Shown: positions 8,013-60,913 of the stretch, piece after piece
Position numbering within the stretch: position 1 is the stretch's first letter
Layout: each line of letters starts with the position of its first letter
Assembly: GCA_033439295.1 (NCBI GenBank)
Contig: JAVTLE010000016.1
Span: forward strand, 2,108,001-2,172,000
DNA length: 64,000 bases
Direction of reading: 5' to 3'
DNA from: Deuterostichococcus epilithicus
Lineage: Eukaryota; Chlorophyta; Trebouxiophyceae; Prasiolales; Stichococcaceae
Position numbers and translations under genes: made by a program
Notes under the pieces: generated by a model
What the model saw: the letters and a program-made list of their open reading frames with translations, nothing else
The model's database searches: none
Told to the model about the DNA's origin: nothing

Positions 8013-11000
8013 ATGGCAGAGAAGGGTGGTGCGGTGGCGCATGCTGCGCAACGGACACTGATCTGTGCGACGCTGCACGCCACCAGCGAGGAAGAAGCAC
8101 TTAAGCAGCTGTCTCAGGCGGCAGAGGACGGCGCTGATCTGGTGGAGCTGCGCCTTGACCGCCTGAGCCTCGGGGCTGACCCGGTGGCGGCCCTGCAGCG
8201 ACTCATGTCTACCAGTGTGCTGCCAGTCATCGTGGCCTGCCGCTCCGGCTCAGCAGGGTGCGCTGCCTGTTTGCAGAGCAGCAGGTGCATCCTGCACCCG
8301 GGTCGATAAGCTCGTTTACGGCACGAGCTACCATGTACATGCTGACGTGCAATGCGCTTGACGTTGCATTGCACATTCAGCCCTCAACTCGGTTGTGCAC
8401 CAAGTCACACGACAACAACCAAGCAGCGTTGTCCTCACGGCAGAGGCCGGTTTCAGGGCAGCGAGAATGATCGGCTGCAGCTGCTGCGGTCTGCGGCCCA
8501 GCAGGGTGCCAAGTACGTGGATGTCGAACTGGACGCTGCGGAGGCTTTCCTCTCAGGTGGGTTCACGCCTCTCTGTTCGGCTCCCTAGTTTGTCAGACTC
8601 GCTTTGGTGTGTGCCGACAGGTTCTGTCGGTGGGGTTGTGTTTCCGAAAAAATCGTCGTGGCAGTTTGTGTAGGTGATTTGCGCGTGTGTTCAGAGGCCA
8701 CGCTGGTCCTAATGCCATGCCACATGAAGCCAGTGCAGCAGGATTCTGGCTGAAGCATGCTGCGCATGCGGCGCCGCAGGCGGGCAGATGCCGGAGGGCA
8801 CGCGTGTCATCGTGTCGCACGAGGAGCAAGGGGGCGGGGTGCCGGATGATGCAGCGCTGCAGGATCTGCTGCGCAGGCTGCAAAAGGCCGGTGGCGATGT
8901 CTTCAGGCTGGTGACGACCCCAGAGGACATTACCGACAGCTTGCGCTTGCTGGCGTTGCCAAACACATTCGAAGGTGGGCTGGTGAACGAAGCGAATGTG
9001 GTGAACATGTTCTGACTGAAAGGATCCGGAAGTAGGCCTGATGCCCGTGGGCGGCTGCGAGCTGCACTGTGACGGCATGTTGATGGTCATGATCACGCTG
9101 AGCTTGGTATCGTCTATCGTGTGGAGACACGATAGTTTGTGAGGTGAACTATGCCTCCAGAGGCAGTCCGCCAGTGATAGTGCTGCATGCACCACACCGC
9201 AGGACAGCTGATTGCGCTGGGCCTGGGGGAGCGCGGTCTGCCGACCCGCATCCTGGCAGCCAAGCACGGCGCCTTCCTCACCTATGGCGCCCTTGAGGAC
9301 GGCATTCCAGGTGCTCCCATCGAAGCTGGGTGCATGCCGACCTGACGTCTGCCAAATGCAAGAAGACCGCAAGCAGCGCGGATCCTCAGACTGCAATGTG
9401 ATGTATGAAGTGTTTTGACACGCACTGGCTTGCCGACTGGAAGCATGGCGCATCAGCCGCAGAATGGACTGGATCCGACACCCAATAGAATGTTGTGATG
9501 GGACATACAGGGGAGCCATCGGTCAGCCAGCTGGTGAAGTCATACCGAGTCAAAGAGCAGACTCCAGAAACCAAGGTCAGAACATCCTTCTATACCAGAA
9601 ATCCGGAACAACAATTGCAGCTGCGGACACAGCTTGACCTCCAGGCCTAGTGAAGCGTCTCTATTGATTCACTGAGAACTGCTCAACACACAATGAATCT
9701 ATTTCATTATTTTGGGTAAACACCCAGGTGTTCGGCATTGCGGGCACCAATGTGGCGCCGGACCGCAACTACGTCGCACACAACACTGTGCACGCAGGTA
9801 CTGGGTTGCAGCTCCTGCATTCTGCTGTTCCATGCGGCTGTCTCTGTTCCCGACTGTCAAACGCCTGCCGCATATCCAGTTGCCTGGCATGGAAGCCCTG
9901 CAACCCTGGCTGCTGGACTGCTTCGTTGTGCCAGCGAGCACTGTTACCCCAATTCGCAGTGGTCATGCTCAAAATGTTCTGCTGATGAATGCATTGCAGC
10001 GATTGAGCTGTGACTGTCACTCATGTACATGGTGTAGCGCTGGGCAGCAACGCGCTGTACCTGCCGCTGCGGGTGGACGACTTCCCCCGCTTCCTGCGCG
10101 CCTTCACTGGGCCTGACTTTGCCGGGTTCTCCGTCACCATGCCCTTCAAGGTGCACAGAATGCCGCCGACTGCCAGTCTAACAAGCTGCCATCATATTGC
10201 CGGCATTGCTGAAAGCCTTCGTCCTAGGTTTTCACCAACCAGTGCCGACTTTGCAAGCTTTTCTGTCACTATGACCTTCAAAGTGCGGCGGCAACTGATC
10301 GTTTCAACAGAGTACACTGCAGCACCTGAGGCGCCATACAGTTGAGTGTTGTTGACCCCAACGACCCAGCGTGTTCATTTCAGCGCTCCACCTCCACCTC
10401 CGCAGCCTCAAGCTCTGCATGTTGCTCAGCCGGGCTGCAAGCAGCAGTGTGCATTTTCTTCGCTCGACGCCCATGTCTGATTCCTTTCTACAGGGCCAGG
10501 CACTGGCCCTCGCGGACGAGAAGGACTCCACCGCGCAGCGCATCGGCGCCTCCAACACGCTTGTGCGGCAGCCGGATGGCCGGTGGAAGGCACTCAACAC
10601 AGACTGGGTCGGCGTGGTGTCCGCCCTCAAGCTGGTCCTCGGCGCCGGTTCCGGCGGCAAAGACAAGGCCCTGCTGGCCGGCAAGCGGGTGGTGGTCGTG
10701 GGCTGCGGCGGCGCCGGGCAGGCCATTGCCTTTGCCGCGGTCGAATGCGGCGCCCAGCAGGTGACGCTGTGGGAAAATGCAGATATGGTGCAGTGCCGAT
10801 GGTCAGACTGTCCGCCCGGTGGTCTTGACCCTGTGCCACGTGAGGCTTCATGTCTCTGCAACCTATCAGCAACCTGTCCGCAGTTTGGCGCCGGCGTTCT
10901 GCAACTGTATGCAGAGCGCTTCCGTTCATTCCTGAATGTGTGTGAGCTCCGCGCAGGTGTTTGTGGCGGATGTCGCGACAGAAAAGGCGCAGGCGGTGGC

Positions 11001-11928: not shown

Positions 11929-12207
11929 GTGCAAGTAGTGAAAGGAATGTTGGTGTGTTGATTCATACATCGCTATGCAAAGTATTTGTACCGAGCTCGC
12001 GCGACATGTAGCAGAAGCCCCCGCGTACATGCCGGCGACGCCTGCCTGCGCGCATTCAACAGAATTCTTAAGCCTGCCTGCTGAATCGTGTGTGGTTAAT
12101 TTGCGCTGCTTGGGAATTGTTGCTCTGAGGCAGAAACTATATTTTATCGCCGCCACAGCTGCCTCCACATACAGACTTTAAACCCTAAAGGTCAACAGAT
12201 TTGACTT

Positions 12208-12212
12208 TGTAA
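12208..12212 (+). terminator. Possible polyadenylation signal TGTAA
   Basis: TGTAA, the usual green-algal poly(A) signal, occurs 280 nt after the stop of the DHQD-SDH gene. A five-base match is weak on its own; the position fits a 3' UTR. Confidence 0.35.
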
Positions 12213-12787: not shown

Positions 12788-13441
12788 TCAACGGCGCTGG
12801 ACAAGCCGCAACCGGCGCCAATGCTGCTGGCAGCAGAAATGGCACAGCATCGCCAGGCAGCAACAAACACCGGTGTAGAACACAAAGACGAGCCATGGCT
12901 GGCGCTCGACGAGCCGCAACCGGCGCCAGCGCTGCCGGCGGCGGAGGCAGCACAGCAACGCCAGGCGGCACGCCGTCGTAAGGACTTCCTGCACGGCGAG
13001 CAGCAGACCGTCGCCGGCGAAGCGTGCCTGTGCATGGCGGTGCGGTCGACTGCGCAGCTGCTGATGCCGTTGCGCGTGGTGCGAATGCTGTACCCCGACC
13101 GCGCCGCAGCGCAGCCGCCTCAGCGCTCCCCTGTCGACTGCCCCTTCTTTGCCGGGCCTCCTGGCAGTGAGCTTGCAGTCCTTGGCGGCGGCTTTTGACA
13201 GAGCGGCACCGTGCCGGGCGGCCATGTGAAGGACGCCGCCTGGCAGCAGCTGGTCGCCTCGCTGGGCCTGCAGGCGGGCTCTGTGGTGGCCGTCACCCGC
13301 GTCGGCATGGCCAGCCCGGACCTGGGGTTCGAGGCTGCGGACTGCGCCGGCGGCCACGTGCTGGCGCCGGCGAGTGAGCTGCTGTTTCGGCGGCGCGGCA
13401 GCGGCACCCGCAACAAGAGCAGCAAGGCCTTGGTGATGTAA
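12788..13441 (+). pseudogene. Second B3-like gene or fragment, frame interrupted
   Basis: One frame carries AQLLMPLRVVRMLYPD, resembling the RQLLPAPVLHQLFP start of the B3 domain at 4.6 kb. A second frame from about 13195 carries AAWQQLVASLGLQAGSVVAV, resembling the C-terminal W..F...L..GD part, and ends in a stop at 13439-13441. The two parts are out of frame near 13170-13200 and I could not place a clean intron, so the gene looks broken or misassembled. Upstream, 12791-12870 and 12903-12980 are diverged copies of one segment (LDKPQPAP and LDEPQPAP). It may be a decayed relative of the first B3-like gene. The exon structure 5' of 12788 is unknown, though coiled-coil-like codons occur at 12400-12520. 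Confidence 0.4.
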
Positions 13442-14392
13442 CGCCGACGGGTGAAGTTAGACCCCATTCATACTCTGTATCTGATCGGAGACATGTTCCT
13501 GCCGTTCCTGCTAGCTGTGAGCCAAACCGACCCTTGCAGTTGTGCAACACCTGTGCAGGATGGGGCTCAAGCGTGGGGAATTAAGGTCGTGATTGCATCC
13601 CGTCCAGGATCACCGCGAAGCTCCTCTGTAGTCCAATGTCACGGTCAAACTCATTCCGGTTCAACAGGCCCAGGTGGAGGTGCCGCTGAGTCAGCCGGGC
13701 GTGCCAGGTGACATGGTGCCAACCACAGCTGTGCTGCCGTCGCCACCATGCTGCTGCCCGAGGCGGACGGCGTCTCAGGCAGCGCAGCTGATGAGCAGGC
13801 TGTTGGCGCACAGGCGGCGGGCGGCGGCGTTGGTACTGGTGCTGCGGGCAGTTGAGCAGCTTTGGCAGCATTCGACAGCCTATGTTTCTGTAAGTGACTT
13901 TACCAGTCTGACCAGGGTGGCAACTCCCACCGTTGATGTTTATGGCGGATTTGACGCTGGGTGATTTGCATCAGTATCGCTGCTTACCCCAGCAACTAAC
14001 AGGTCGTCAGCTCTGCATGGTGTGCGTCCCGTGACAGATTGCTGTTTGCGAGCCACGCTTGGGTGCCTGAACGAATGTATTCATGAACAGCAATATCGAG
14101 ATGGACTGTCGTTAATGAAATGGCGCCAGGCATGGTCATGCATGGCAGGGTTCAATTGTGCATGATCAACATGATGTTTTCACCGCAGTAGGCAGATAAG
14201 AAACGACAGCCATGCCACAAAGCCACAAACGGCTTCAGACCGATCAAGCATTGCGACATTTGTGAGAGTTTACAAATCTCGCAACCGATTTGTTGGCATT
14301 TATTCAGTCTCGCCACCGAACGTCACCCTTGTTGCCTGTGCAGTGTGAGCTGTCAAGGTGTCCCTGCCACCGCAGCTGCACGAGGCCCTCGC
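13442..14392. other. Intergenic stretch, nothing firm
   Basis: The interval lies between the 3' ends of the second B3-like gene (+) and RING gene A (-). A short + frame near 13740-13860 reads MLLPEADGVSGSADEQAVG and could be a 3' exon, but nothing supports it beyond composition. Confidence 0.4.
14270..14274 (-). terminator. Possible polyadenylation signal TGTAA of RING gene A
   Basis: On the minus strand TGTAA lies about 120 nt past the RING gene A stop. The distance is plausible for an algal 3' UTR; the match is only five bases. Confidence 0.4.
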
Positions 14393-17300
14393 TCACGTCC
14401 TGAACACCTGCGCCACGAAGCTGTCGATCTGCGCGGAGCCGGGAAGCACAGTCACGGTCAGGCCTGCTGCATACACGTGGTATCCCAGTCAATTATACGC
14501 TGTGTGCAGCACCTGTCAAGACTTCAGGGACTTGGCCATGATGATAAGAATGTATGGTGGTTCGTCAAGCAGTCGTCAGACACACCTTGGTGCGGCAAAT
14601 GGGGCAGCAGCGGCCCGAGTCCATGCTAGACGCCACCAGGACGAGCGTGCAATCCCTGCGGTCGGCACAGCTTCACATCAGGCAAGTATGGACCTTTCAT
14701 AGTATTTCTACAGCCTGACAGCAGGATGACACGCCGTCAACAAGCACACCACACGTTCAAGGCTCGAACAAGCGGCCGGGAGGTCAAAACCAGTGCGCAC
14801 CTGCACAGGCACTGGTGGCCGCACGGCGCCAGGATGACGCCAGACGGCGCATCGAGGCACATGACGCACTGGCTGTCAGTCGCCGCAGCGGCGGCGGCAG
14901 CTGCGAGGTGGACTGCGGCATCCGCAGCCATGACAGCAGCAGGCCCCGCACTCCTGAGGTCTGGTTGCAGTTCTCTCTCGGGTGCTGGCACGCCAGTAGG
15001 TGCTGCTGCTGCAGACTGCAGATCTTCCTGAACAATCATGAGGTCCTCGTTGAAGGTTGCAGCTTACACATCATGCTCTATTCATGACTCAACGTTGGCA
15101 TAATGTATGGAAATGTCAACGCGTGGCGCCGGCTTGACGACCCTGCGCAGCACAGCTGCAGCATGTAATGAAACGTGTACCTGGATGCGGACACCTGGAT
15201 GCCGGCAGTTGAAGGTGGTGCCGCCATTGCCGCCGTCAGCTGTGGCGGCGTCTGCGGCGAGCGCATCCACCGGGGCGGAGGCTTCGGGACTGTAGGGCAG
15301 CAGCGCTGCATGAGACACAGCCCGCCGATCCTGCTGCTGCAGTGCCAGCTCCGCAGGGACAGACAGAACAGCATTCGCCGCCATGGGCTTGGGAGGCGAC
15401 GCAGGCACTGCACCCGCCGCCGCCTCGAGCACAGCTGCCGCCTGGCTCTGGTGCCGCTGTCGCCGCGCGCGACGGCTGCGCCTGGCCCCCGAGCCTGCTG
15501 CCAAGGGGTCGGCAGCTCTGCCGTCCAGGGATTCTTCCCTGATGCCCTGTGCTGCCGCCTTGCTGCCACTCTTCTGCTTGACCGCCCGCTGCTTGAAAAG
15601 CTGCTTGCTGTTCGGTTTCCCAGTGCTTGGCACTCTTGCTGCAGACACCGGGCTGTTATGATGACCTGCGGCCGCGCCTGCCTTGCGGGAGGCTCGCAGT
15701 ACGCGCACGGCTGCGACTGTGCGGCTGCAGAGCACGCGCCAGGCGCCACGGGCTAGCAGCGAGGTGCGTGCAGCCGCCGCGGCAGTCGCCGGCCACACCG
15801 CCGCCGCGGCCTGTATCAAGTGGCTGTGCAGCTCCAGCGCCCAGACCAGCACCCAGATGGCCCCTTCACTCAGTGGCGCCTGCACCGCCCGGACGCCATC
15901 TCTGATTGCCTGCAGCAATAAGGCAGGCGGGGTGTTGGTTATTGACGGCATCTGCGCATGTGAAGTGTGTGCAGGGCGCAAAGGTGACGCGACGGTCGCC
16001 CAGGTCTCTGCTGATTGCTCGCCTCAATAGTGGTTAGAATAACCCGGACCCTTTGCTAAACCGAGAAAGCGGCAGGAGGTGCGACTCACCTGGCGCTTGA
16101 AGATGGCCGCTGACACTGCCATTAGGGCAATCAGGACTGCCAGAGTCCCGCTGGCTGACAGTCCCTCATCTTGCCAGTCATCATCGAGGAAGCCCTCCTC
16201 GTCATCTGCTGCAAGGCAGAAGCCGGCCATGTCTTCCCCGACTTCGGCTCTGTCTCCGCCATCGCTGCATTGCTCCTCATCAGCCTCATCATCAAACTCA
16301 GACTCCAGCTCATCCCCTTCCGCCAGATCCTCGTCTTCTCCAGCCTCGTCAGTATCAGCAGCAGCGCCGTCATACGTGTCAGCCTCCTTGCCGTCCGCAT
16401 CGCCGTCAGCATCGACAGCATCTGACTCGTCATCAGAGCCGTCATCTGTTGGCTGGAAAGTCCACCTTACAGGAAACTCCTGCGAGTCGCCTTCCTGTGC
16501 ATCCTCTCCCGCGGCAAGCGCTCGGTCCCAGGCCATCTGCAAGTACCCTTCTGGCGGAAAGACGGCCGCGTCGTACGCCTGCTGCTGCCAAGGCGCTGGC
16601 TTTACTAAGCCAACAGCTCGATGCGGTGCACCAGCGCCGACCGATTGCTTGGGCAGCGGCGGCGCTGGGAGGATGGGAGGACCAGATGCTGCGGCGCGGC
16701 GGCCAGCAGCCGCATGCGGCTGAGCGGCGGGTCTGCCATTCGCCGGCATCTGCTGGAACGTGGCATACCTGCCCTGCCTGCCGCGGCTGTCGCTGACTAC
16801 TGCACACTTGTGCGTGGCTTCATTGCACCAGACTTGGCCGGGACACAGCGTTGTGGCGACGAGTGTGCCATGGAACAGCGACTGTCGCATGATGCACCCG
16901 CCTGGCAGCTGCTGGTCCCGCGCTTCGGCGTCCGGGGCGCCAGAGTAGCGGTCATACTGCTGCCGCTTGAGCGGCGCTGTCGGCTCGCTGGGAGTGTGGC
17001 GGCCGAGCGCAGCTGCTGGACGGGGACTGTGACTGCCTGTGCCTCTGTCTCCGATGCCACTGCTGGCACTCGGCCCGGCAAAGCCCTTGACAGCGTCGCT
17101 GGCGCCGCCTCTGCTGTTGTGCGCTCCACGGCCGCAAGTGCAGCACCTGGGAGCAGAGTGCAGCTGCGGAGATGATGTGGGTATGCATTGGGTAGTCGGC
17201 TGCTTCTCGACAGCAGAGGCCTGCTTGCGCCCCGGATGCTGCCTGCCACTGCTGCTGCAGCTTGTCGCCTTGTCCACTTTGCTGTCCGAGCTCGCGCCAC

Positions 17301-17466
17301 TGCAGACGAGCACCGCCAGCAGCAGCGTCAGAAGGTAGCCAGAAGCTTGGTAGCCGCTGGACACCCTCATCTCGCTTGGCTGCACCGAGGACGGAGTTCC
17401 TGCGTCGGGAGGAGGCCAAGCATTCACCAAGACGAGCGACTTGCAGCCCGCGGGAACGAACCACAC
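14393..17466 (-). CDS. Membrane-anchored RING-finger protein (copy A)
   Basis: A putative E3 ubiquitin ligase. Exon 1 (17466-16090) encodes an N-terminal hydrophobic anchor (SGYLLTLLLAVLVCSG), a Cys/Ser-rich region, a long Asp/Glu tract and a second hydrophobic segment (GTLAVLIALMAVSAAI), ending at a GTGAGT donor. Exon 2 starts at 15951 and carries another hydrophobic region (AIWVLVWALEL) and basic runs. The last three exons (15027-14801, 14655-14586, 14428-14393) splice in phase to a C3HC4 RING at the very C terminus: CVMC, then CGHQCLCRDC, then CCPICRTK, ending IDSFVAQVFRT. A C-terminal RING of this kind resembles the MUL1/SP1/XIAP class. The donor of exon 2 is not certain. Substrate and membrane are unknown. 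It is the intact member of a tandem pair. Confidence 0.72.
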
Positions 17467-17941
17467 GATAACTCAACAACTGATGGATCATTGCAGGCGT
17501 GAACAGCTCGTGCGTCGCCTCACCGTACCAGTAAAAGCTTTCTACGCATCAGCTATTGTTATCAGCCTTGCGCGGGGTCCAGCTTGCAGTCCGTTGCAAG
17601 GAGCCGAACGTGGCGGTCGTGCGTGCACTTTCATATTGACTATCGAACACGGCCTGCAACTCTTGAGCCAGTACGCTTCGCTGGTGAGCGGACTTCACGC
17701 CGCCTGGTAACGATGGGCCCACATTTCGAGGCGCTCTGGGATGGACGACATGGACGTCTGGGTCTGGCCAGGGCCATGGCGGAAAAATGTGCGGTCGGGA
17801 GAGTTCACCAAACTCTCACTTCTATCGCAATGGCTGTTCTGTCAACAGGTTCATTAGATAGTCTCCGCCGCACATCACCCTCGTCGCATGTGCTGACTTT
17901 TCAGGGTATGCTTGCTGCAGCTGCATGAGGCCCCTCCCGTA

Positions 17942-20872
17942 TTACATCCTGAACACCTGCGCCACGAAGCTGTCGATCTGCAAAGAGCCAGGCAGCACAG
18001 TCAGGTTCAGATCTGATGCTGCATATGTGTAATATCACAATCAATTTCATTTCTGTGCGGGGCACCTGTCAAGAATCGAAGATGACTTAGCTGTGGTTAA
18101 AAGGGAGTGCAGTGAGTTGTTAAGCAAACGTCTGGCACACTTTGATGCGGCCCGAGTCCTTGCTGGATGCCATCAGGACGAGCGTGCAATCCCTGCAGTC
18201 GGCCCGCAGTCGCATCAGGCAAGCGTGGACCTTTCAGTACAGCTTTTTGACCACACCCTGACAAGCCTGATGAAACCCATGTGCTGAGACGCCATGCTAT
18301 AAGCACAGCGTATGAGGTCCGAGCAATGCCACCTGGAGGTCAAGACCAGTGCGCACCTGCACAGGCACTGGTGGCCGCATAGCGCCAGGATGACGCCAGA
18401 CGGCGCATCGAGGCACATGACGCACTGGCTGTCAGTCGCCGCAGCGGTGGCGGCAGCTGCGAGGTGGACTGCGGCATCCGCAGTCATGACAGCAGCAGGC
18501 CCCGCGCTCTTGATGTCTGGTTGCACTTCTCTCTCGGGTGCTGGCACGCCAGTAGGTGCTGCTGCTGCAGACTGCAGATCTTCCTGAACAATCATGAGGT
18601 CCTCTCTGAAGGTTGCCACACACCACAAGACAATTCGATTTGGACAGAAGTTGGCGCCTAGCACTGGCCTGACGACCCTGCGCAGCAGAGCTACAGGCTG
18701 TGATGAGAAGGGCACCTGGTTGTGGACATCGTGCTGGCGGCTGTTGAGGGTGGTGCCGCCATTGCCGCTGTCCGCGACGGCGGCGTCTGCGGCGAGAGCA
18801 TCCGCCGGGGCGGAGGCTTCGGGACTGTAGGGTAGCAGCGCTGCAAGAGGCACAGCCCGCCGATCCTGCTGCTGCAGTGCCAGCTCCGCAGGTTCAGATT
18901 GAACAGCATTCGCCGCCATGGGCTTGGGAGGCGACGCAGGCACTGCACCCGCCGCCGCCTCGAGCACAGCTGCCGCCTGGCTCTGTTGCCGCTGTCGCCG
19001 CGCGCGCCGGCTGCGCTTGGCCTTCGAGGCTGCTGCCGAGGGGGTCTTAGCTTTGGTGTATGGATATTCCTCCACGTTGATGCCCTCTGCCGCATTGCGG
19101 CCAGGCTTGTGCTTGGGCGCCCGCTGCTTGACGTTGGGCTGCTGCTTGCAGTTCGCACTCCCAGCACTGGGCACCTCGGCTGCAGGTACTGGGCCGCCAT
19201 GATAGCCTGCGGCCGCGCTTGCCTTGCAGAAGGCTCGCACGAACCACACGCCTGCGGCTGTGCGGCTGCAGAGCACGCGCCAGGCGCCACGGAATAGCAG
19301 CAATGTCTGCGCAGCCGCCACGGCAGCCACACACCACCCTGCTGCCGTCGCGGAATGCACCAGGTGGCTGTGCAGCTCCATCGCCCAGACAAGTACCCAG
19401 ATGGCCGCTTCCCTCAGTGGCGCCTGCACCGCGCGGACACCGTCTCCGATCGCCTGCAGCAGCAAGGCAGGCGGGGTGTTGATTGACAGCATCAGCCACC
19501 CTTGATGTCGTGCAGAATGCGGAGAGATCTGGTGGATGCGATGTATGCGATTGAAGCTGGGAGGCACATTGGTGAGCTCAGTCCGCGCAATATGGTGTCA
19601 GAACGACCGGGATCCATCTGCTAAGTTGAGGAAGAATTGGTGGTGCAACTCACCATGTGCATCCAGCCGACCGCTGCTCTCATAGTCATGCCAACCAGGA
19701 TCAGCACTGCTATAGTCCAGCGGTCGCTGCTTTGCTCCTCAGCAGACTCATCGTCAAGCTGAGACTTAAGGTCATTCCCTTCCGCCAGTTTCCCCTCTTC
19801 ACCAGCCTCGTCAGTATTTGCAACAGCGACGTCATATTTGTCAGCCTCTAGCACGAAATTCCCGCCGAACACCACACGAACTTGCTCTGAGGCGCCTTGC
19901 TCTGCACCCTCTGCCGCGGCGAGCGTCTCATACCAAGCATCCTGCAAAAATTTGTCGTCTGGCAGGAAGACGGCCGCGTCATACGTCTGCTGCTGCTGAG
20001 GCGCTGGCATCATTGAGCCGTCAGCACGATGCAGTACGCCAGTGCAGGCGGTTGCTTGGGTGACGGCGGTGCTGGTAGGAATTGGAAGAGGCAGATGCTG
20101 CGGCGCAGCGGCCAGCGGCTGCATGCTGCCGAACGGCGGGTCTGCCGCCCGCCGGCATCTGCTGGAACATGATGTTTTTGCCCTGCTTGCCGCCGCCGCT
20201 GCTGGCGCTTATACACTTGAACGTGGCGGAGTCGCACAAGCTTGGGCCGGGGCACACCATCGTGGAGACCGTTTCGCCATAGAACAGCGACTGTGGCATG
20301 CTGCATCCGCCCGGCAGCTGCTGGTCCCGCGCCTCTTCGTCTGGGGCGCCAGAGTAGCAGTCATACTGCTGCGGCTCGTGCAGCGCTGTCAGCTCACAGG
20401 GATCGTGCCGACCGAGCGCAGCTGCTGGATGGGGACTGTGGCTGCCTGCTCCTCTGCCGCTGATGCCACTGCTGGCAATCATACCGGTGAAGCCCTTGAC
20501 TGCGCCGCTGGCGCCACCTCTGCTGTTGTGCGCTCCGCAGCCGCGAGTGCAGCACTTATTGGGGGCAAAAAGCAGCTGCGGAGACGAGATTCCACCGCTG
20601 CTGCTGCTTGCCGCCTTTCTCACTTTGCCGTCCAAGTATAATGCGCCACCACAAACGAGCGCTGCCAGCAGCAGCGCCAGAAGATAAGCACGGTGGCGGC
20701 TGAACACTACCCTCGTCTCGCTTGGCTGCGCCAAGAACGGGTTTATTTCTGTGTCAGGGTTGGAAGTAGGCCAGGTACTCAGCAACACGATATGCAGCGA
20801 GCGGGAACAAGCCACACAGTGAGCCTTACATGCGTGAACAGCTCGTGCATTATCCTGCCTCACCGGTGGCAA
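17942..20872 (-). pseudogene. RING-finger paralog (copy B), degenerate
   Basis: A tandem copy of gene A in the same orientation with the same exon order. The N-terminal anchor is kept (RAYLLALLLAALVCGG). The RING exons at 18583-18357, 18192-18141 and 17977-17942 splice in the same phases and keep CVMC and CGHQCLCRDC, but the third reads DSGRIK where copy A has DSGRCCPICRTK: 18 nt coding CCPICR are gone in frame, removing the last zinc-ligand pair. The acidic tract is also much shorter. The acceptor before exon 2 appears lost: copy A has CGCAG before ATGCCGTCA, while copy B has GGCTG before ATGCTGTCA, near 19491. An independent start at 19567 could still give an open frame through the first RING half. 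It may be a pseudogene or a truncated, perhaps dominant-interfering, protein. Confidence 0.65.
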
Positions 20873-21366
20873 GTAAATGCTTTCTACGCATCAGGCATTG
20901 TCATCAGCTTGGTATGCGAAGTCAGTTTGCAGCCCGTTGCAAGAAGCCGAGCGTAGCGGTCGTGAGTGCACTTTCGGTTTGACTGCCGAACGCAGGATGC
21001 AACTCCTGAGCCAATACGCTGCGCTGCTCGCACCTGCGTGGACTTGGGGCCGCGTGCCACGAGTGAGCACGCAGTTTGATGCGGTCCGGTGAGACATTGC
21101 TGGCCCAGACTGCGGAATTTTCGGCGGTCGAGAGACTTCACATGAGACAAGTTTACGAACTGGTTTGGCCTGGAGAGCCGACCCCCTGCCAAGCTCAGAC
21201 TTCACCGTACCGACGAGCTTTGAAAGGCCCGGTTCGGATTGAGGAAGAGCAAGCTTAGTGCCCACGGGCATAGCCGCATACGCCCTAGTCCCATCCGGCA
21301 GCCGCAGCTGACGTGCAGTAGCACCGCCTCTCATGCCTCCGATTTGCCTCTTGTCATGCCTCCTTG

Positions 21367-49212: not shown

Positions 49213-52200
49213 ATGCGCACAGGCACGAAGGTGCTGATCGCGAACCGCGGCGAGATCGCGTGCCGCGTGACGCGTGCGGTCAAGGCGCTGAACTACACGC
49301 CCGTCATCGTGTACACAGAGGCGGACGCGCTTTCGCTGCATGTCCTCGGCGCTGAGGAAAAGGTGCGGCCCTGTACCTGTGCCGCTTGTTCAACTGCTCG
49401 GTCGTGAGCTCGCTGGAGGGTTTGGCGTGAGGCTGGCGTTGTGGTATCGGCTTCCACTGGGCTCGTGCGTCAGGGCAGGGCGCCAGCGCAGGGCATGGCA
49501 ACGGCAAGCGCATTCACGAGGGACTCGGACTGCAGCCATCTGCTGGTCATGGCAACTTGCATCGCGCCGCGCGTACGTGGCGCCATTCAGCTTCAGACAG
49601 CAGCCTGCGGCATGCATAGGGCCCCCAGGCCACCTACTGTGTTGGGTCGGGGGGAAAGCAGGGTGCTTCGGCTGTTGAATGCCGGATCCCTCCTGTGAGC
49701 ACGAGCATTCAAGAGGCGCGCAATGACCCCCGCGCAGGTGTGCCTCGGCAGCGACAAGCGGGCATACACGAGTGTGCAGAAGCTGGTGGACATCGCCAAA
49801 GAGCAGGGCGCTGTGGCCGTGCACCCCGGGTACGCGCTAGCTCGCTCTTTTCGCATTGTGAAATGGGCTCCCTGTTCATCAGGTCGAATACACGCTCGAT
49901 AGTGCAGTGCCAGCTCGTCGTGCCAGCGCCCTGGCGCTGTAAAACGGCCTCTGTGCCGCGGATCTTGCGCTGCAGCTGCAGGATGGTGTAGCTCGAGGGC
50001 TGCGCGGCCGGTAACGATCCGACAGGCTCTCCCTCAGCATGTTGATGTGGGTTGCCGCACTTTGACGTGCCGCAGGTATGGCTTCCTGTCGGAAAACATC
50101 GAGTTTGCCGCGGCTGTAGAAGCCGCAGGCATCGCGTTCCTGGGCCCCACGACAGCCACCATGGAGCAATTCAGCCTGAAGCACACCGCTCGCGCCATCG
50201 CAGAGGATGCTCAGGTGACCAGCTTGTTCGTGTGCCAGCCAGCAGAGCGGCCGTCACATGCTGCCGGGGAGCTGCTTGCCAAGCAAGAGCGGAGTCACGC
50301 CAGCAGCTGCTGCAATCTTGCCTGCTGGCCTGCTTGCGTATTGCATACACGCGGCGATGTTGTAGCGCTCCTCACAGCGCCAGATATGCTAAACAAAGCC
50401 AGGGTGCATCCACCGACAGGTGCCGGTGCTGCCGGGCAGCGGCCTGCTGACATCCGCAGAGGAGGCGGGCCAGCTGGCAGACGGCATCGGCTACCCGGTG
50501 CTGCTGAAAGCCACCGGCGGCGGCGGCGGCATTGGCATCTACATCTGCGCCTCGCACGGCGAGGTGGTGGACCAGTTTGCCGTGGCGGCCCGCCAGGGCC
50601 AGGCCAACTTTGGCGACTCGGGTACGGCGCCTGATATCCCTCGCACACAGGCTTCTCGTTCCGCTGATGTGTTTTCATCCAGAATTGCAGGCATCCAGAC
50701 AGCGCAAGCCAGGCACCATTCTGTGGAGTCGTGAATGCCAGCGCTTCAGTACTGCCTGCAGCAACATAATCCCACCAGCATCCGATGAATAAGACTCTCC
50801 AACCCCGAAGGCCGTGCCAATTTCAGACTTCAGAAGCCTCTGACAAATCCTGGTGCAGGTGTGTTCCTGGAGAAGTACGTGCTGCATGCGCGGCACATCG
50901 AGGTGCAGATCTTTGGCGATGGGTCCGGCACCGTGGTGCACCTCGGCGAGCGGGAGTGCTCCATCCAGCGGCGGCACCAGAAGATCGTGGAGGAGACGCC
51001 AAGCCCCTACGCCACCCCCAAGTTCCGGGAGGCCATCACCTCCGCCGCGGTGCGGCCATCCTCCTAGAACCCTGTAGAAACACGAGTCTTCATGGCACAG
51101 AAGATCGTGGATTAGACGTTTAGCCCTCACGCTATCCCTACAATTCACGAAGCAGTCACCTCTGCCGCTGTAGTTTCCTTCATGTGTTTATTGGGACTGT
51201 GGTTAGGGTTTCCTCGGAGCCTTCGCCCTACTCCATGCCTTTATAGGTCATTAACTCCACCGCAGTGTATGGGCGGCGCGGCTCCGCGGCTGTGCGTGCT
51301 GGGGTTCAGTCGTCTAAGTACGATTCAGCTGACGGGCCTGCCTGTGGCCGATCTCCAATCCCTCTGCATCACGAGCGGATGAATGCCAAGGAGCATCGCC
51401 AGTGGCGACCACGACAGCTGGCTCACAGCTTTGCATTGCCTGCGCAGGTGCGGCTTGGGGAGCACGCCAAGTACCGCTCCGCGGGCACCGTCGAGTTCCT
51501 GGTGGATGACGACACCGGCGAGTTCTACTTTCTGGAGGTGCGCTGCATTCCAGTCAATTTGATGATGCAACATGAGACAACAATCGTGATGCGCCTCAGT
51601 GCCTTGCCAGGCAACTGCAGGCGTGTAGAGGACCACGGTTGCTCGCGCTCAGTGTCGCCTTAGTTTGATGCAGTTGCCTCGATGAGGTCCCTCACGCTTT
51701 GATCCTTTCGCGGATCAAAGCTTGTGAGGCACCGATCTGAGGCAGGGTTCTGCTCCGCGGGAATCTCTCGCTCCAATAACTTGAGTGGTACTCACTTGAG
51801 CTTGTTGAGCCTGCGCGCCGCAGGTGAACACGCGGCTGCAGGTGGAGCACGGCATCACGGAGTATGTCTCCCGCCAGGACCTGGTGCAGTGGATGCTGCG
51901 ACTGCAGGTGGGTCGCCTGAAGCCTCAAGAACTGTCCCACTCAAGAATCCTCTGAGAGGTCATGCCTGGCCCCGTGTCCGGCTGTGCCTCTGCCACTCGG
52001 GCTGTGTGACGCCGATGATGGCGCCGGCAGGCGGTGCCGCCGCCTGCCTTCGCTAGCTAGGGCCGTTTGGTGCTGTTAACGTCGCCCTTTACTGCCCGCC
52101 ACCGCCCTCCAGCGCTCCAGCTGAGCGCCTTCAACCGACTGTAGCGTGCTGCAGCCCATGCCAGTCGCTGCCACACAGCTGTGCCGAGGCAGGTTTCAGG

Positions 52201-55200
52201 TCCTGCCAGCCATTGAGAGCGTCGCAAGCGCCAAACCTGACGCAACCTGACCTGATTCCATCCAGCCCACGCATGCGGCAGGTGCCGGGCCTGACGCCGC
52301 CGGACCTGCAGCAGTACACCTTTGACAACCGGGGCTCCGCCATCGAGGTCCGCATCAATGCGGAGAACCCCACCGCCGGCTTCACACCCTCCTCAGGTAT
52401 GCCGGCTTGTGCAGCTCGTCGCATCGTTGGCTGGACTAGTTTCCAACAGGTTCTCGGACTGGCACACAGCCTGCGCTTGCGCTTGTGCCCGACACAGTGT
52501 TTTCTGAATGGAGGATCCGGGAATGTGACGTGGATCAGGGATGCGTGTAACACCTGGACATGACGGCGCCAATGGGCAGGCACACTGGGCGAGGTGACCT
52601 GGCCCAGCATGGGGGCCATGCGCGCGGAAACCTGGTTCCATCTGATGTGTTGTGAAACTTCCAGTCGTCGGCGTGCACTTTGACGTTTCATTTTGGGTTC
52701 AAGGGTCGTGTCTGCTTCTGCAGGCACGCTGGGCGAGGTCACCTGGCCGGACATGGAAGGCGTGCGCGTGGACACCTGGGTCGAGACGGGGTCCGAGGTT
52801 ACGCCCTTCTATGACAGCCTGCTGGCCAAGCTGATGGTGTTCGCGCCCGACCGGCCCGCCGCCATCGCAAAGCTGCAGCAGGCGCTCGCCGCCACGCAGG
52901 TGCCCCCTCGTCACATTTAGATGTCTGGTTTTGTCTTCTTCATGTTACCAGGCATTCGAAGGAGGTACGAGGCAGCAATGAGGACACAAACCCTCGAGTG
53001 GCTGACCTGGCTGGCCACCTCAGACATCCCATCCTCGTACGTTGGTGCAGGCGCTGCATGCTCAGGAAGTTGCCCAGCTGCATTGACATGCTCCCCAGCG
53101 GCCCAGATCACATGCGGCAGCTGATGCGCGCCACCCCTGCGCACCTGCTGCAGCTCAAGGGCATCCCCAACAACCTGGAGCTGTGCAAGACCATCGCCGC
53201 CAGCCAGCGCTTTGCGGACGGCGCCACGACGACCGGCTTCTTGAACGACCATCAGTTTGCGCCGCACGCCGCTGAGGTCGTGGCGCCCGGCATGAACACA
53301 ACTGTGCAGGTGCCTGAAACCCTCAACGCCTCAACTCCTCAAACCCTGCATCTGTCTCGGACTTGCCGAGGCGAGCACACAGCTGTGCAGCTGGGCGTGC
53401 TGCCAAGCGGGCCCTTGGTGCATGACTCTCGGAGATCCCCCTGCACCACAAAACAGGCCTCGTCGCCCTTTTCATCAATCTTCATTTGTTTAGATATATC
53501 GTATATTACAAATATACTTTGGTTACCATGGTATAGACTATATATCTTTCTATAATAACGACATCAACGCATCTGCACAGGACTGGCCAGGTCGTGTGCA
53601 GCTGTGGAACATCGGCGTGCCGCCGAGCGGCCCGATGGACGCACGTGCCTTCCGCTTCGCCAACGCCCTCGTCGGCAACGCCCCTGACGCCGCCGGCCTG
53701 GAGTTTGCCATCGCGGGTGCGGCTTGTGTGGCAGCACCCCGTTCGAAATGTTTACCTTCCGAACGGTGACTTTGGTGCTCACTGGCCATGCTGTCAGGCT
53801 GCAGGAGAGCCGCAGCCTACGGCGCAGCCCCCCAGCAGCATAAGCAGATGCATTCCGATGCCACATCCGACCAGCGGAGCAGGGACGGCACGTGGGCCAT
53901 TGCGCCGGTCGTCTGTGCACAATTCTGAACCTGCGCTGCGAGAAGAGACAGCAACATTCTCATACATACAGTGACAGCTGCAGATGCCGCATCTCTGCCT
54001 GGCTGACCTTGCAGGCCCGACGCTGAAGTTCCATGCGGCCGCCGTGGTGGCACTCACGGGCGCGGAGTTCGATGCAAAACTGGACGGCTCGGCGGTTCCC
54101 TGCTGGACCAGCGTCGCAGTCGCGGCCGGCACCGTGCTGACCGTGGGCATGGTGAGCCTCCCCTGCAGCGACATCGCGCAGAACGAACCACCTCGCCTTG
54201 CAGACGCTTTGATTGCAAACGCAGTGAAAGAACGCCATTCGATGGGCTTAGCCACTCGCGCCGAGGCACTCGCGCCTGCCTCGGCAGCAGCGGCCTGAGG
54301 CGCCGCGCTGCGTTGCACGTCAGCTGCTGCGGTGCTCAACAGCCCACGATGCATCGCACAGTGTGGCCGTCTGAGATCTGTAAGAGACGCTGTGCTTCTT
54401 GAGCAGGCGAAGGGCAACGGCGGGGCGCGCGGCTACTTGGCAGTAAGTGGCGGCTTGGACGTGCCGGTATATCTGGGCAGCCGCGCCACCTTCCCCGGCG
54501 GCGGCCTTGGCGGCGTGCAGGTGCGCACTTCTCGTAGATGCAGTTGTTGAATTGAATCCCAGCTTCCGATCTCCTGCGTGTGACGAGTGCACGTGGGGGC
54601 TTGGCCAAGAATCGGCTCCCTGTTGGCATGGTCTGTCAAGCGGGGCAGACCTCGTGCGCAGACTGTCTGCTGCATGTCGGGATGCCTGTGCCAACGCTGC
54701 AACCGACTAAGTCGCAGTGTTCAAGCCGACGCCTGCATGAGAAGGCTTCCTTGACGATGCCTCCAACCTGCTTTGAGCTTCTGTTCCGAGTTTACGCTCT
54801 GTCTTGAGCTTCATCTCGTGCGCGCTGTCATGCAGGGGCGCCCACTGAAGGCGGGCGACTACCTGCCGCTGGGCGCCGCCGCAGAGGCGGGCGGCAGCCC
54901 CAAGCCGGGCGCCGAGGTGCCCGCCGCCTGGCGCCCCGCCTTCCCGCCCCCCAAGGTGCAGTGTGCGCACATAGAGTGCTCGCACGACTGAGCTCCGGTC
55001 CGTCTGTTCGGTCGTCTGCAGCACTTGGAACATCTTCACGGGGTTGCAGGTGCGGCTGGCAATGAGGGGCTGTGCCAGCTCTGGAGAAGCTGTGCTGGTG
55101 CCCTGTGCACAGCAGTACCCAAGCTGCCTTGACGTGCTGGAGCTGGCCCTCTTTGGGTGTTGATATCCTCTGGCAGAGCCGCAAAGCATACGATCGCCTC

Positions 55201-58200
55201 ATGCGGGCTCCTGTGTGCCGCTGCAGGCGGGCGAGTGGAGCATCGGCGTGCTGCCGGGGCCCAACGCCGCGCCCGACTACTTCACCCCGGAGGACATCGC
55301 CACGCTGTACAGCAGCCCCTACTCCGTGCACTACAACTCGTGCGCCTCCTGCAAACCTCATTGTGAAAGAACAGCACTGAGTCAGGGGCATCCCCACGAA
55401 GTGCCCCAACCTGCACGGCGGTCTGTTGTGGCGACCTGTGTTGGACAACAGGCGGCGAGACCAAGAACAATGTTGCAGCAACTGAGCCAATGCATGCACA
55501 ACGCTCTCGAGACTTCAGCCTTGCCAGACAAATTGCACAATGCCAGAGTGTGTCGGGAGCTGACATAAATGTCAGCAGCAAACAAAAGCAAACTTCGTGC
55601 GCGGCACAGGAACCGGCTAGGCGTGCGGCTAGAGGGCCCCGCACCCAAGTGGGCGCGCACCGACGGCGGCGAGGGCGGCAGCCACCCCTCCAACGTGCAC
55701 GACCACGTCTACGCGCTCGGCAGCATCAACTTCACCGGCAACATGCCTGTGCGCTGCCCTGCTGCTGCTGTGGCCTGAATGCATCGAAGCATCCGTGTCA
55801 GCACGTCGAGACAGAGGCGAGTCGGAGCTGTGCATAGCTTCTGCAGCAGGTGACTGCTGTGAAAATTTTAGCCAACCCCAGCCAACCCCAAGCTGGCAAT
55901 CAACAGTGTACAGATCTGCAATTTGCCTCTGCAACGCCTAAAGCCCGCGCAAGAATGAAGTCATGTATGTTTCATCTCCTGATTATGATTCTAGTTCGTG
56001 CTTCCACTTCCACAGGTTGCACTCATGCCGGACGGCCCAAGCCTGGGCGGCTTCGTGTGCCCCGCCACCATCCCCTCCGCAGAGCTGTGGAAGATGGGCC
56101 AGGCGCGCCGCTTTGCTTGAACAATAATTATGAAAACATGCCGCTCCGGTTTGTACCCGCACGGCCCAGATGGTGAGCACTCGACCTTCAGGAGATGACT
56201 GCCAGCCAGCCCAAGCAATGTCGGGAATCAGTGCGCTGGTCCATGAGCGATGCCACTCTCGCATCATCGTGCGGCTGGAAGCAGCTGACAGGCTGTGGCA
56301 ACAGCTCGTAGGTATCTGCCGGCGACACGGTGCGCTTCAAGGAGCTGACGCTGGCAGAGGCGGCTGCGCTGCGCATTAAGACCGATGCACAGGTGGATGC
56401 GCTGGCCGCGCTGGCGGCCGGCAAGTGCAGCCCTGCGGAGGCGGAGGCGCAATTGAAGGTGGGGCGCCGCTGCGCATGCACGTTGACATTCGTGGACTCT
56501 AGGCCAGGGCTGTAAGCCTCGCCTGGGACAAGCGAGCAGCCTTTGAATCTTTGGGCGGCAGCTGTGCTGATGTGAGTCTTTCTCAAGCTTCACAGACTGG
56601 TTTCGGACGGCATCCGTCGTTTCAGCTGCTGGCTGCTCTTTTTGTCCTGTTAAATCGCGATCCGCAATGCGCACGCACAGGTTGACGAGACGGCGGCGGG
56701 CAAGGGGCTGCCGGAAACCAAGGTGGTGCTGCTGCAGGTCCCTGCCTCCGACACCCATCCGGGGCTGCAGGTGCGCTCATGCCTCTTGGCCCTGTTCTTG
56801 CAACCCTAAGGTTCCTGTAACCTGTTCTTGCGGCCCTCTGCCGAGTCGAGCAGCGTCTGTGCGTCGCGAGTGCGCCGCCACACTCCGCGCCGTCCCTGTG
56901 CACACCCACCCAGTGCACAGGGACGGCGCGGAGTGTGGTGGCACTCTCTCAGGCATTGCGTCAAACACATGCTGGACGGGCTTGGGGCTGGGACGCCATG
57001 CCTGTCCCGGCACACCAACGAGTTGCAAAGATGAGGCAGAGCAACCATGCAGATGACAGGCAACACGTTGTGTTAGCAGCTGGGCCGACAGATGAAAGCC
57101 CTGTGCAATATGCGCTGACCAGACTGCCGGCTGACTCTGCAGGTGCGGCTGGCGGGCGACCGCTATGTGCTGGTCGAGTACGGCCCCATGGAGCTGGACC
57201 TCAACCTGCGTGTGCGGGTGTGGGCGCTGCAGGCACACCTCGCCGACGCCAAGGTGCGGCGGGCAGAGCTTGTGTGAAGCACCTTTCGCTTTGGATATCC
57301 GACTGCAGATCCTGCGACCCCCACTGAGGTTCCCCCCATGAGGTGGGGTCACACAATGCCTGGCGGTCCAGGCGGGCTGTTGTTTGGCGGATTGCTGCAA
57401 GGAGGCGTCTCCAGGTGCTTGCCCCTACAGACGCTCGACCATGTCCAGTACCTATGCTGGCATCATGTTGATTATCTGACGAACCTCATCACTCATTACT
57501 CTTTCAAACCTCAGGTGCCGGGCCTGGTGGAGACAAGCCCAGGCGTGCGCTCGGTGATGGTCGAGTACGAGCCCCGGGTGCTGCCGCTGTCGCGGCTGCT
57601 GGAGGTGCTGCAGGATGCAGACGCGGGGCTGCCGTCCAGCGACGCGGTGTCGCTGCCAAGCCGCGTCCTGCGGCTGCCCATCGCTTTTGGCGACCGCTGG
57701 ACCGAAGCAGCCATCCAGAGGTGGCGACACTGCTTTGACGCATCGATCCCAGCACATCACAGACAAAATTTAGTTTCGAAGGTCGGCATTGCGCCCAAGC
57801 AGTGCTGGCACATCGACGCGCATTCAGTGGAGACGACTTCGAGGTTTGAGAGGACAGGACACGTCCGCACCTAAATCTCCGCCCGTTGGAGTTACCACCG
57901 GCTGCCCTGTAAAGCGCATGTCTAGCCTGCTGATTTCCACCCTTTTGCTGCCGCCGTAGGTACATGAAGTCGGCGCGTGACGACGCTCCCTACCTACCCA
58001 GCAACATCGACTTTGCGGCAGCCAACAATGGGCTGGCGGGTCCGGAGGACGTCTGCAAGACGCTCATGGACGCCTCCTACATGGTGCTGGGTTTGGGCGG
58101 TGAGTTCTTCTTGAGGATATCTTGTTTGTAAGAAAGGAGCGAGAACACATCTGCATCAGACATATCTTCGGCAAGGGCGTGAGACTATGATGCTGTAAAC

Positions 58201-60913
58201 CCTGCTGCCGTGCTGCGTGAGAAATATGCCTTGCTGCAGCGCTGATCCGTCTGACGCCTGTCGACGATGCTGCCCGTGCTCGGATGGCAGCCTTTCGCAG
58301 TGCCGCGGCCTGGCTGCCAGGCAGGTCAGCAAGCATCTTGCGGCTGCCATGCTATACTCAGCAGCAAGAGGCTAGCTGGAGGAATAATTCTCCCAAGCCC
58401 GCGCATCTCACCAGGCTCCAGGCTCTCCCAACTCGAGTGGCTGCTGCGCTCTCTGAAACTCTGCCAAATCTGGCATGCAGATGTGTACCTTGGGGCGCCA
58501 TGCGCAGTGCCGCTAGACCCGCGCCACCGGCTGGTCGTACCCAAGTACAACCCCGCCCGCACCTTCACCCCCGAGGTGCGGTGCCGGCCACGGCTGATGA
58601 ATGAGGCTGTGCTGGCGACGAGACTGCAGGGCTGTTCTTGACGCCCAGCTCACGGAGATGCCTCTGCAGCAGAGGGACCCTGCAGCGCATGTACAGGGCG
58701 GAACACCTGTGAGACAGACGAAGCCATGCCCGCAGGTTTCTGCCTCTGGCAGCTGCAGGCAACAATCAAACCTGCAGCTCCGGCAATTCGCCTCCCTCTT
58801 GTCTGAGATTGTGCAGGGGGACGTGGTCAGCGGAGGCTAAACAGATCCCACACAACATCCAGGCCGAAAGTCCGAAGACAGGGATGCGGTGACACGCCGT
58901 GGGCCTGCGCGGCCGTGCGCAACATCTGCACCCTCGTCATCCTCGCCTTTCTTACATGACACACTGGTTTTGCAGGGCGCCGTGGGGCTGGGCGGGGCCT
59001 ATCTGTGCATCTACCCCATGGAGTCGCCGGGCGGGTACCAGCTGGTCGGCCGCACGCTGCCCATCTGGAACACCTGGGGCCGCACGCCGCCCTTCAGCCC
59101 CGCCACGCCTTGGCTGCTGCGCATCTTCGACCAGGTGCCGGCGCGGTTCACCTCTTGCATGGGCTCGCTGCGCGCTGCTGATCTGAAACACCTGGGGCCG
59201 CACGTCGCCCTTCAGCCCTGCGACCGAATGAGACACAGCGAGCAGGCTATAGCCCTGAACATTGCTAAGTTCAGCCCTCAATCAGCACATCCCCTGCTGC
59301 AAAAGAGCGCACAAGTGGGGCGCCGCACTTGCCGCACGGCAGCCGCCACGACCGCCATATAGCAGATGCCGCTGCAGCCGCCGCAGCCGCCTGGCCAGCC
59401 TCATACACTCATTCTGATGCATGCAGCCCCGCAGATGAAGTTTTGCATGTCCAAGGAGCCCCGGATTCCTAATGGCCTCGGCAGCTGCTGCAGCCGGCCA
59501 ATCAAATCCGTCGTGACAGGTCGCAAGATGTAATTTTTTTTGCTTTGTTGTGTGCAGGGATCGTCGATGTGTCGGAGGAGGCTCTTGAGGCGCAGCGCGT
59601 GACAATAGCTGCCGGGCAGCTGCTGCCAATGGATACCGCAAAGCTGTCTGTGCTATCTGACCTTCAATGCTTTGTCACGATCGCAGATCAAGTTTTTCGA
59701 GGTGTCGGAGGAGGAGCTCGAGTCGCAGCGGGCGGCGTTCGCGGCAGGGCAGCTGCAGCTGGAAACCGAGGAGCAGGCCTTTGACATGGGAGCCTACAAC
59801 AAGTTTGTGGCCGACGTGGCGCCTGAGGCCGCCGCCTTCCGCGAGCAGCAGCAGGCTGCGTCCGCAAAGCAGGCGCGCTTCCGACCTCCATGCTGGGACG
59901 ATGTCACTGTGGCGACCTAGAGCATTCTCGGTGCCAGGGGCGCTCCTGACACTGAGGCATATCCTCTGATGGCTGCAGTCTCAGCTGTGGCGCCAGCCGG
60001 CAGGGTGCTGAATGGTTCACTGCCAAATGCCAGCAGATTGAATGCCTTGCCTGCACCCGCAGAACGAGTTGGACGAGGCGTCGCTGGCGCGGCTGGCGGC
60101 CAAGGCGGCGGCGGGCGGCGGCCCCAAGCCCGAGGCCGACGCGGGGCCCGAGGCCATCCCCGGCGGTGCCGACGTCACCTCTGCCATCGCAGCCAACGTG
60201 TGGGAGGTGCTAATTAAGGTGTGCGGTTTCGAAAAAAAATACTTCAACTCGTTTGCGCGCGGGTTCTTGCGACACGTGCTGCAGTCAGCACATGCAGGTG
60301 CTCCTGCAATAGGAGAGGTCAGGTCAGGATGTCAGTACCCAGGATGCTGGCTGCTGTGCCGTGCAGTACCACATCCGCACGCATCATGCACATGACGGAT
60401 TGCCCCCGTGGTTAATTGTGTTGAACCCTTGAAAGATGGATGGCTGAACGCTGCGATCCTGCGTCAGGTGGGCGACAAGGTGAAGGTGGGCCAGAAGCTT
60501 ATGGTGTTGGAGGCAATGAAGGTGCGAAGCTGCTGCCCCTCCCCAACCTGTCGGGTGTCCTAGCCAATGTGGGTACTGGGGTGTGGAGCATCTGCTCTTG
60601 CTGGTCGAAGGATGGCTGCTGTGCCGGCTGCTACATGGAGGGCCAGGATGTGTGGCTGAGACCTCTCGGAGTTCTGACTGCAGCCAGCTACACCGCATGC
60701 TGCTGCTGACTGCCAGCGAGGCAGCGCCTGCACCCGTGACGGCCATCGGAGGCTTTGCACGTCTGAACTCAAACCTCATAGATCGTGCCGCTGTAAATGC
60801 AGATGGAGGTGGCAGTCACAGCGTCCGTTGGCGGCAGGGTGGCGGCGGTGCGTGTGGAGGCAGGGCAGCTGGCGCAGCAGGGCGATGTGCTGGCCGTCGT
60901 CGTCCCCTCCTGA
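49213..60913 (+). CDS. DUR1: Urea carboxylase (biotin-dependent)
   Basis: Twenty-eight exons keep phase throughout and total 3696 nt, 1231 aa, the usual size of the enzyme: 49213-49362, 49738-49829, 50076-50214, 50420-50621, 50859-51049, 51448-51537, 51824-51907, 52282-52396, 52724-52899, 53154-53309, 53581-53716, 54015-54151, 54407-54520, 54836-54955, 55227-55339, 55610-55748, 56016-56102, 56312-56458, 56681-56770, 57143-57253, 57515-57720, 57960-58099, 58481-58575, 58976-59134, 59687-59872, 60063-60218, 60468-60521, 60803-60913. It carboxylates urea to allophanate with ATP, bicarbonate and biotin. Domains in order: biotin carboxylase ([47 protein letters not shown]), the KipI/KipA-type carboxyltransferase ([31 protein letters not shown]) and biotin carrier (VLEAMKMEV). 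Allophanate hydrolase is not fused, as in other green algae with separate DUR2. Two introns use GC donors. Confidence 0.95.
53490..53562. other. AT-rich island inside a urea carboxylase intron
   Basis: About 70 bp of almost pure A/T (for example AGATATATCGTATATTAC) in the intron between exons at 53309 and 53581, directly before the acceptor. It includes the palindrome TACCATGGTA. No other intron in the window is so AT-rich. Confidence 0.7.

Follow-up and report, generated by a model that had tools for sequence, protein, structure and literature searches.

Results

Gene Content of the Window

The window, by which we mean the whole 64,000 nt stretch of Deuterostichococcus epilithicus DNA analyzed here, has a G+C content of about 61%, with simple repeats and high G+C in parts. 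Five spliced genes comprising 77 exons and 72 introns were modeled by means of a codon and splice-site model with curation by hand (Table 1). Curation of the exons was guided by protein homology, and three of the five products were afterwards compared with known structures; the other two, which we take to be an ankyrin-kinase and a DUR3-type urea transporter, were named from reading their translations. All five gene models read through to one final stop and 71 of the 72 introns have GT-AG borders; the gene ends are approximate, most of all in NOG1 and DUR3. The sole non-GT intron, which follows urea carboxylase exon 17 and was placed via protein homology, is apparently GC-AG. The spliced proteins without the copies described below match known structures: the urea carboxylase product aligns over almost its full length with the Kluyveromyces enzyme 3va7 (residues 6-1209 of 1211), the DHQD-SDH product aligns with Arabidopsis 2gpt (residues 15-504 of 520), and the NOG1 product aligns with 2e87 across exons 3-7. 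The fused DHQD-SDH is of plant type, as would be expected of a green alga. The DUR3-type transporter and urea carboxylase genes are divergently transcribed and possibly constitute a urea-use gene pair. A search of the NOG1 and DUR3 proteins against viral_contigs returned no relative.

Table 1. Genes, exon copies, and other features of the window; the offset is given in nt, and the intron half is the part of the putative duplicated unit that lies beyond the splice junction.
Feature	Position	Strand	Offset	z	Identity	Remarks
DHQD-SDH gene	8013-11928	+				11 exons
NOG1 (GTPase) gene	25434-21367	-				8 exons; gene ends approximate
Ankyrin-kinase gene	27886-32821	+				12 exons
DUR3-type urea transporter gene	47127-41486	-				18 exons; gene ends approximate
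Urea carboxylase (UC) gene	49213-60913	+				28 exons
Intron after UC exon 17	56103-56311					apparently GC-AG
SET-domain-like exons	35932-36811	-				likely histone methyltransferase gene
Copy of DHQD-SDH exon 7 (10038-10150), 3' end	10247-10281	+	132	7.7	80%	downstream intron; reaches 5' splice site
Copy of NOG1 exon 3 (24601-24787), 5' end	24833-24894	-	107	14.2	84%	upstream intron; intron half p = 0.056
Copy of NOG1 exon 3, 3' part	24445-24497	-	172	9.5	81%	downstream intron
Copy of NOG1 exon 4 (23739-23924), 3' end	23605-23642	-	136	10.8	87%	downstream intron
Copy of NOG1 exon 5 (23014-23157, P-loop exon), 5' end	23210-23311	-	156	17.2	77%	upstream intron; P-loop residues altered
Copy of NOG1 exon 5, 3' end	22873-22946	-	146	10.9	78%	downstream intron
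Copy of NOG1 exon 7 (21813-22248), 5' end and upstream intron sequence	22333-22397	-	115-145	6.0		upstream intron; intron half p = 0.028
Copy of kinase exon 9 (31443-31567), 5' end, farther	31197-31217	+	246	6.5, 7.3
Copy of kinase exon 9, 5' end, nearer	31325-31372	+	119	6.8
Copy of kinase exon 11 (32368-32497), 5' end	32230-32288	+	138	19.4	90%	upstream intron; intron half p = 0.014
Copy of UC exon 5 (50859-51049), 3' end	51094-51168	+	121	14.9	73%	downstream intron; in-frame stop
Copy of UC exon 9 (52724-52899), 5' end	52580-52638	+	144	14.9	80%	upstream intron
Copy of UC exon 11 (53581-53716), 5' end	53360-53465	+	221	9.7	72%	upstream intron
Copy of UC exon 24 (58976-59134), 3' part	59167-59224	+	118	18.6	86%	downstream intron; in-frame stop
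Copy of UC exon 25 (59687-59815), 5' part	59564-59667	+	133	14.6	74%	upstream intron; in-frame stop; intron half p = 0.042
80-nt tandem duplication within DUR3 intron 4	46043-46201			21	83-84%	no exon involved
Tandemly duplicated locus	14310-17683 and 17862-21026				0.72-0.97 in 100-nt bins	3.2-3.4 kb; same orientation
108-nt direct repeat	12793-12970				81%	outside modeled genes
Cluster of diverged direct repeats	62161-62609					spacings 42-264 nt

Exon Copies in Flanking Introns

The introns on either side of every exon were searched for copies of it (144 pairs), with 144 reverse-complement pairs and 308 sampled non-flanking pairs as controls. At z of at least 5 there were 14 same-orientation matches among the flanking pairs, vs. 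one among the reverse-complement pairs and one among the sampled non-flanking pairs, i.e., exons match their own introns rather than those of others; the corresponding numbers were 17, three, and one at z of at least 4, and 11, zero, and zero at z of at least 8. Masking of the first match exposed one further strong copy, beside kinase exon 9, giving 15 copies in all. These lie in 12 of the 72 introns (about one in six) and in four of the five modeled genes, with copies in five of seven introns of NOG1, four of 27 of urea carboxylase, two of 11 of the kinase, one of 10 of DHQD-SDH, and none of 17 of DUR3. The enrichment in NOG1 with respect to the other genes (Fisher p = 0.001) was a comparison picked after the data were seen. 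The same four genes had been named in a preliminary description of this DNA as carrying exon-like, same-orientation copies in their introns, and these copies are real: neither the sampled non-flanking introns nor shuffled sequence scored as high as the true flanking introns.

Scans made independently of the exon-intron pairs gave the same orientation. A window-wide gapped scan of 1236 segments yielded 38 direct, eight reverse-complement, and no shuffled matches with a score of at least 38. With low-complexity sequence masked, along with five repeat stretches picked by hand, ungapped direct repeats scoring at least 16 numbered 33 at offsets of 30-600; two equally wide ranges of control offsets gave one and two. 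BLAST self-comparison identified 30 direct and no inverted pairs less than 500 nt apart, low-complexity pairs included. Five weaker candidates with z between 3.4 and 4.9 (UC exons 2 and 13, DHQD-SDH exons 2 and 3, and DUR3 exon 15) were left uncounted, two of which exceeded z = 5 under other shuffles. The duplication in DUR3 intron 4 is the sole clear case confined to an intron.

Some further features of the window should be mentioned. Inverted exon-intron matches with z of 4.4-5.6 were seen between UC exon 28 and the intron at 60522-60802, UC exon 9 and the intron at 52397-52723, and UC exon 11 and the intron at 53717-54014. The SET-domain-like exons belong to a gene whose identity we assume from reading its translation; for four of its exons no copy was found in six exon-intron pairs and one flank, and another flank gave a 25-nt match with z = 4.1. 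Repeats also occur elsewhere in the window (Table 1): the identity along the tandemly duplicated locus follows no clear codon pattern, and several of the spacings in the repeat cluster near the end of the window are close to multiples of 44.

Position, Unit Size, and Intron Length

Eight of the 14 copies found at z of at least 5 represent the start of an exon and lie in the upstream intron, while six represent the end of an exon and lie in the downstream intron. The similarity ends inside the exon on one side and at or near the splice junction on the other, with 10 of the 14 alignments reaching within 3 nt of the junction; similarity extending deeper into the exon is weak (p ≤ 0.05 in two of 14, kinase exon 11 and UC exon 25). 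The offsets of the 14 copies were 107, 118, 121, 132, 133, 136, 138, 144, 145, 146, 156, 172, 221, and 246 nt, and the 12 of these within 107-172 nt have a mean of 137 nt (sd 17). The two copies of kinase exon 9, at -119 and -246, read as a tandem triplication. The gap between copy and source exon was 19-115 nt in 13 of the 14 and 225 nt in the remaining one. Copies lie closer to their own exon than expected under random placement (p = 0.00015). Among the 12 copies with offsets below 200, longer exon-like parts go with shorter gaps (slope -0.93, Spearman -0.74, p = 0.006); the sum of the two, the offset, is thus the constant, as a constant unit requires.

Copy-bearing introns are long, with a median of 383.5 nt in these 12 vs. 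246.5 nt in the 60 others (p = 0.0001). This difference vanishes once the offsets are subtracted (p = 0.38) and persists if only the exon-like part is subtracted (p = 0.027). Judged from the lengths of present-day introns, the DNA gained per intron would thus amount to one unit.

Decay of the Copies

The copies diverge by 10-28% from their source exons. Mismatches to the exon fall at 53 of 288, 50 of 288, and 77 of 293 sites at codon positions 1, 2, and 3, respectively (18.4, 17.4, and 26.3%), and at 47 of 165 fourfold sites. The preliminary description had stated that the differences concentrate at third positions: a 1.5-fold excess does exist there (p = 0.005), but at 26% vs. 18% it is no concentration. 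The reading frame is broken by 13 of the 18 gaps, and 275 codons of the copies contain three stops. All of this fits copies which drift as non-coding sequence while the exons change mainly at silent sites. A shift from G/C to A/T had likewise been described, and this did not hold up as a mutational bias: G/C-to-A/T changes were found at 92 of 602 G/C sites (15.3%) and A/T-to-G/C changes at 45 of 267 A/T sites (16.9%), the net shift arising because the exons are G+C-rich. Retention of splice sites was borne out insofar as the dinucleotide, read by eye, is present at 10 of the 14 copies, but this is about what drift alone would leave. Clustering of identical runs within the copies, such as a gene-conversion patchwork would produce, was sought and none was detected (p = 0.32), so that no recent patchy conversion is seen. 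Young cases are scarce, since mismatch at positions 1 and 2 is below 10% in one copy only, that of DHQD-SDH exon 7 (two of 24).

The Intron Half of the Putative Duplicated Unit

Similarity in the intron half (p ≤ 0.06) was recognized in four of the 14 copies, namely those of kinase exon 11, urea carboxylase exon 25, the 5' end of NOG1 exon 3, and NOG1 exon 7, for the last of which the junction was placed by hand. All four are at 3' splice sites, and none of the six copies of 5' splice sites shows an intron half. The combined p against no intron-half similarity is 0.028. Mean identity in the 60-nt flanks was 0.531 vs. 0.524 for mismatched pairs, with one of 14 exceeding the 95% point. The test for kinase exon 9 overlaps the second copy and hence is unfair as a test. 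Intron halves relocated elsewhere within the same intron were sought and not found.

Simulations of tandem duplication without a detection step predict a mean z of about 8, vs. 0.6 observed, and in 10 of the 14 cases the observed intron-half score lies below nearly all simulated ones. It should be noted that the measured divergence is too low, because the copies were found through their well-preserved exon part. With a detection step and a true divergence of 0.22-0.30 per site, the simulated mismatch of the exon part at positions 1 and 2 is 0.18-0.23 (observed 0.179), and the intron-half score, observed at 0.57 null standard deviations, drops from 2.2 to background level with increasing divergence and indel rate. 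Mismatch and intron-half score were matched jointly by none of 5000 draws at the poorest settings of divergence and indel rate and with P = 0.09 at the best; the latter yield 0.050-0.055 gaps per nt, vs. 0.021 observed. Unit size and spread were inputs to these simulations, and the spread of the simulated offsets therefore lends tandem duplication no support. Adding the detection step removes most, but not all, of the conflict. Fewer intron halves are recognizable than a simple tandem duplication model predicts.

Discussion

The copies are probably the relics of short tandem duplications, with a unit of about 137 nt (sd 17), which crossed exon-intron junctions. Such an event at a 5' splice site would produce two successive rounds of exon edge, splice site, and intron piece; at a 3' splice site the order would be the mirror image. 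Splicing would have been kept to the edge on the exon's side, leaving the protein unaltered and turning the second edge intronic; selection would then have held the exon copy fixed and left the intronic one to drift, and every event would have added one unit to the length of the intron. Same orientation, adjacency, a near-constant unit, a matching gain in length, one apparent triplication, a duplication confined to an intron, and non-coding decay are all observed here. That duplication took place, and that it arose by repair of staggered breaks or by replication slippage, is what we infer. Among the three explanations offered in the preliminary description, tandem duplication as a process of intron growth fits best, on account of adjacency, constant unit, and length gain. 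A second, biased conversion keeping exons GC-rich, is unneeded, there being no per-site bias and no clustering of identical runs. The assertion that fresh duplication would not give such a pattern fails for old duplication, as a frozen exon copy together with a drifting intronic copy gives a similar picture.

Duplications of about 140 bp would mostly be purged within exons, would quickly become invisible within introns, and would be both tolerated and long visible across junctions. The pair should remain recognizable for longer than a wholly intronic duplication because its exon copy is frozen by selection; since junction-crossing copies stay visible longest, the density seen here partly reflects detectability. 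The simulated detection rate was 61% (158/259) at r 0.24 and 37% (96/259) at r 0.30, from which the true number of events is perhaps about twice that seen.

The scarcity of recognizable intron halves makes a serious rival of exon-limited copying or exon-anchored gene conversion, in which the exon edge and its splice site are copied or refreshed and the intron sequence is not. In most cases the splice junction, or a point no more than a few nt from it, is where identity sinks to background, as this would predict, while tandem duplication simulated without a detection step calls for more intron similarity than is found and fits with strain even when detection is included. We nevertheless judge exon-limited copying unlikely: the offset is constant, the gain in intron length equals the offset and not the exon-like part, the intron halves are similar in four of 14 cases, and the unclustered identical runs argue against conversion. 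A spliced-RNA template, as one origin of such copies, was rejected, the outer flanks having no similarity to the neighboring exon (none of 14 at p ≤ 0.05, lowest 0.053). Further points against junction-crossing tandem duplication are the scarcity of young copies and the finding of a single clear duplication within an intron. The reading thus survives, with tension.

Mutually exclusive exons are whole, spliced, and under coding constraint. That the copies are old, dying exons of this kind was the third suggestion of the preliminary description; in this form, or widened to alternative exons in general or to decoys still in use, it appears quite improbable to us. Several copies do retain a splice site and can still be read in frame (e.g., those of DHQD-SDH exon 7 and the nearer copy of kinase exon 9), two mini-exons predicted by the gene finder (23290-23313 and 22355-22363) correspond to parts of copies, and in the six copies of 5' splice sites the hand-summed mismatch is 12/110 at position 2 vs. 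32/110 at position 3. The copies are, however, partial and drifting: only part of each exon was copied, at offsets (107-172) which are often below the length of the exon, the P-loop is altered in the NOG1 copy, and the frame-breaking gaps and stops, together with the about equal overall drift of positions 1 and 2, do not point to coding constraint.

Tandem duplication within a gene is also said, in work attributed to Rogers (1989), Gao and Lynch (2009), and Hellsten (2011), to give rise to introns of exon-like sequence. Creation of the present introns by duplication of an AGGT-containing exon segment, as in the Rogers model, would account for the direct orientation of the copies and for the presence of exon-like sequence, but would have the intron begin with a copy of the downstream exon and end, beside the next exon, with one of the upstream exon, whereas here the copies lie near their own source; for the introns as they now stand the model is contradicted by copy position, and we regard it as very improbable. 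Chance, composition, or an assembly artefact, which the locally high G+C and simple repeats of the window might invite, has next to no probability in view of the shuffled, reverse-complement, and non-flanking controls and of a divergence too great for a mis-assembled duplicate.

Junction-crossing tandem duplication has a precedent. In a potato RNA-dependent RNA polymerase gene, a tandem duplication across an intron-exon boundary is described that turned part of the upstream copy of the exon into intron, and the same paper mentions an 83-bp tandem duplication within the first intron (PMC4974935). Common to the two systems are adjacent, same-orientation copies and, on our reading, the crossing of the junction; the potato case as described there is one recent event which created an extra intron, whereas here there are 15 old copies in 12 introns, each of which remains a single, longer intron (PMC4974935). 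Intron gain by tandem duplication is established and likewise leaves exon-like sequence within an intron, but there the duplication is internal to an exon and gives rise to a new intron, and here it would cross an existing junction and lengthen the intron (PMC3443670). As to cause, repair of breaks with overhangs yields short direct tandem duplications at Cas9-induced breaks in mouse, and apparently human, cells (PMC8355091); this is a possible source of the copies, although the introduction of that paper speaks of insertions of less than 100 bp. Introners too add intron sequence to many genes, but they are copies of one element (PMC9860276), whereas here each copy matches its own neighboring exon. 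Tandem exon duplication, as with mutually exclusive exons, has in common with our observations an exon-like copy beside an exon (PMC5740500). Among the literature matches listed, judged from titles and the openings of abstracts, none surveyed such relics at a comparable density. If our preferred reading holds, the mechanism is ordinary, and it is the density and the uniform unit that are unusual.

More tentatively, and with rather more doubt than confidence, the lineage may have, or may have had, a process which tandemly duplicates preferred units of about 137 nt, which has hit junctions so often that about one in six introns retains its mark, and which has been a main source of intron sequence, with the exon edges acting as a slow clock. 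As a matter of speculation, the near-constant unit recalls the length of a nucleosome or an Okazaki fragment. Intron growth normally leaves no visible trace, as the sequence of introns is under no constraint and quickly ceases to be recognizable. A duplication crossing a junction anchors one half in a conserved exon, so that one can tell how old and how large it is and where it lies. If the density seen in this window holds genome-wide, a single assembly would suffice to measure how often short tandem duplications arise, how large their units are, and how their ages are distributed, and the choice of the spliceosome between near-identical splice sites about 140 nt apart would become addressable. 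If tandem duplication across junctions is indeed the true reading, these introns would hold an unusually clear record of intron growth.
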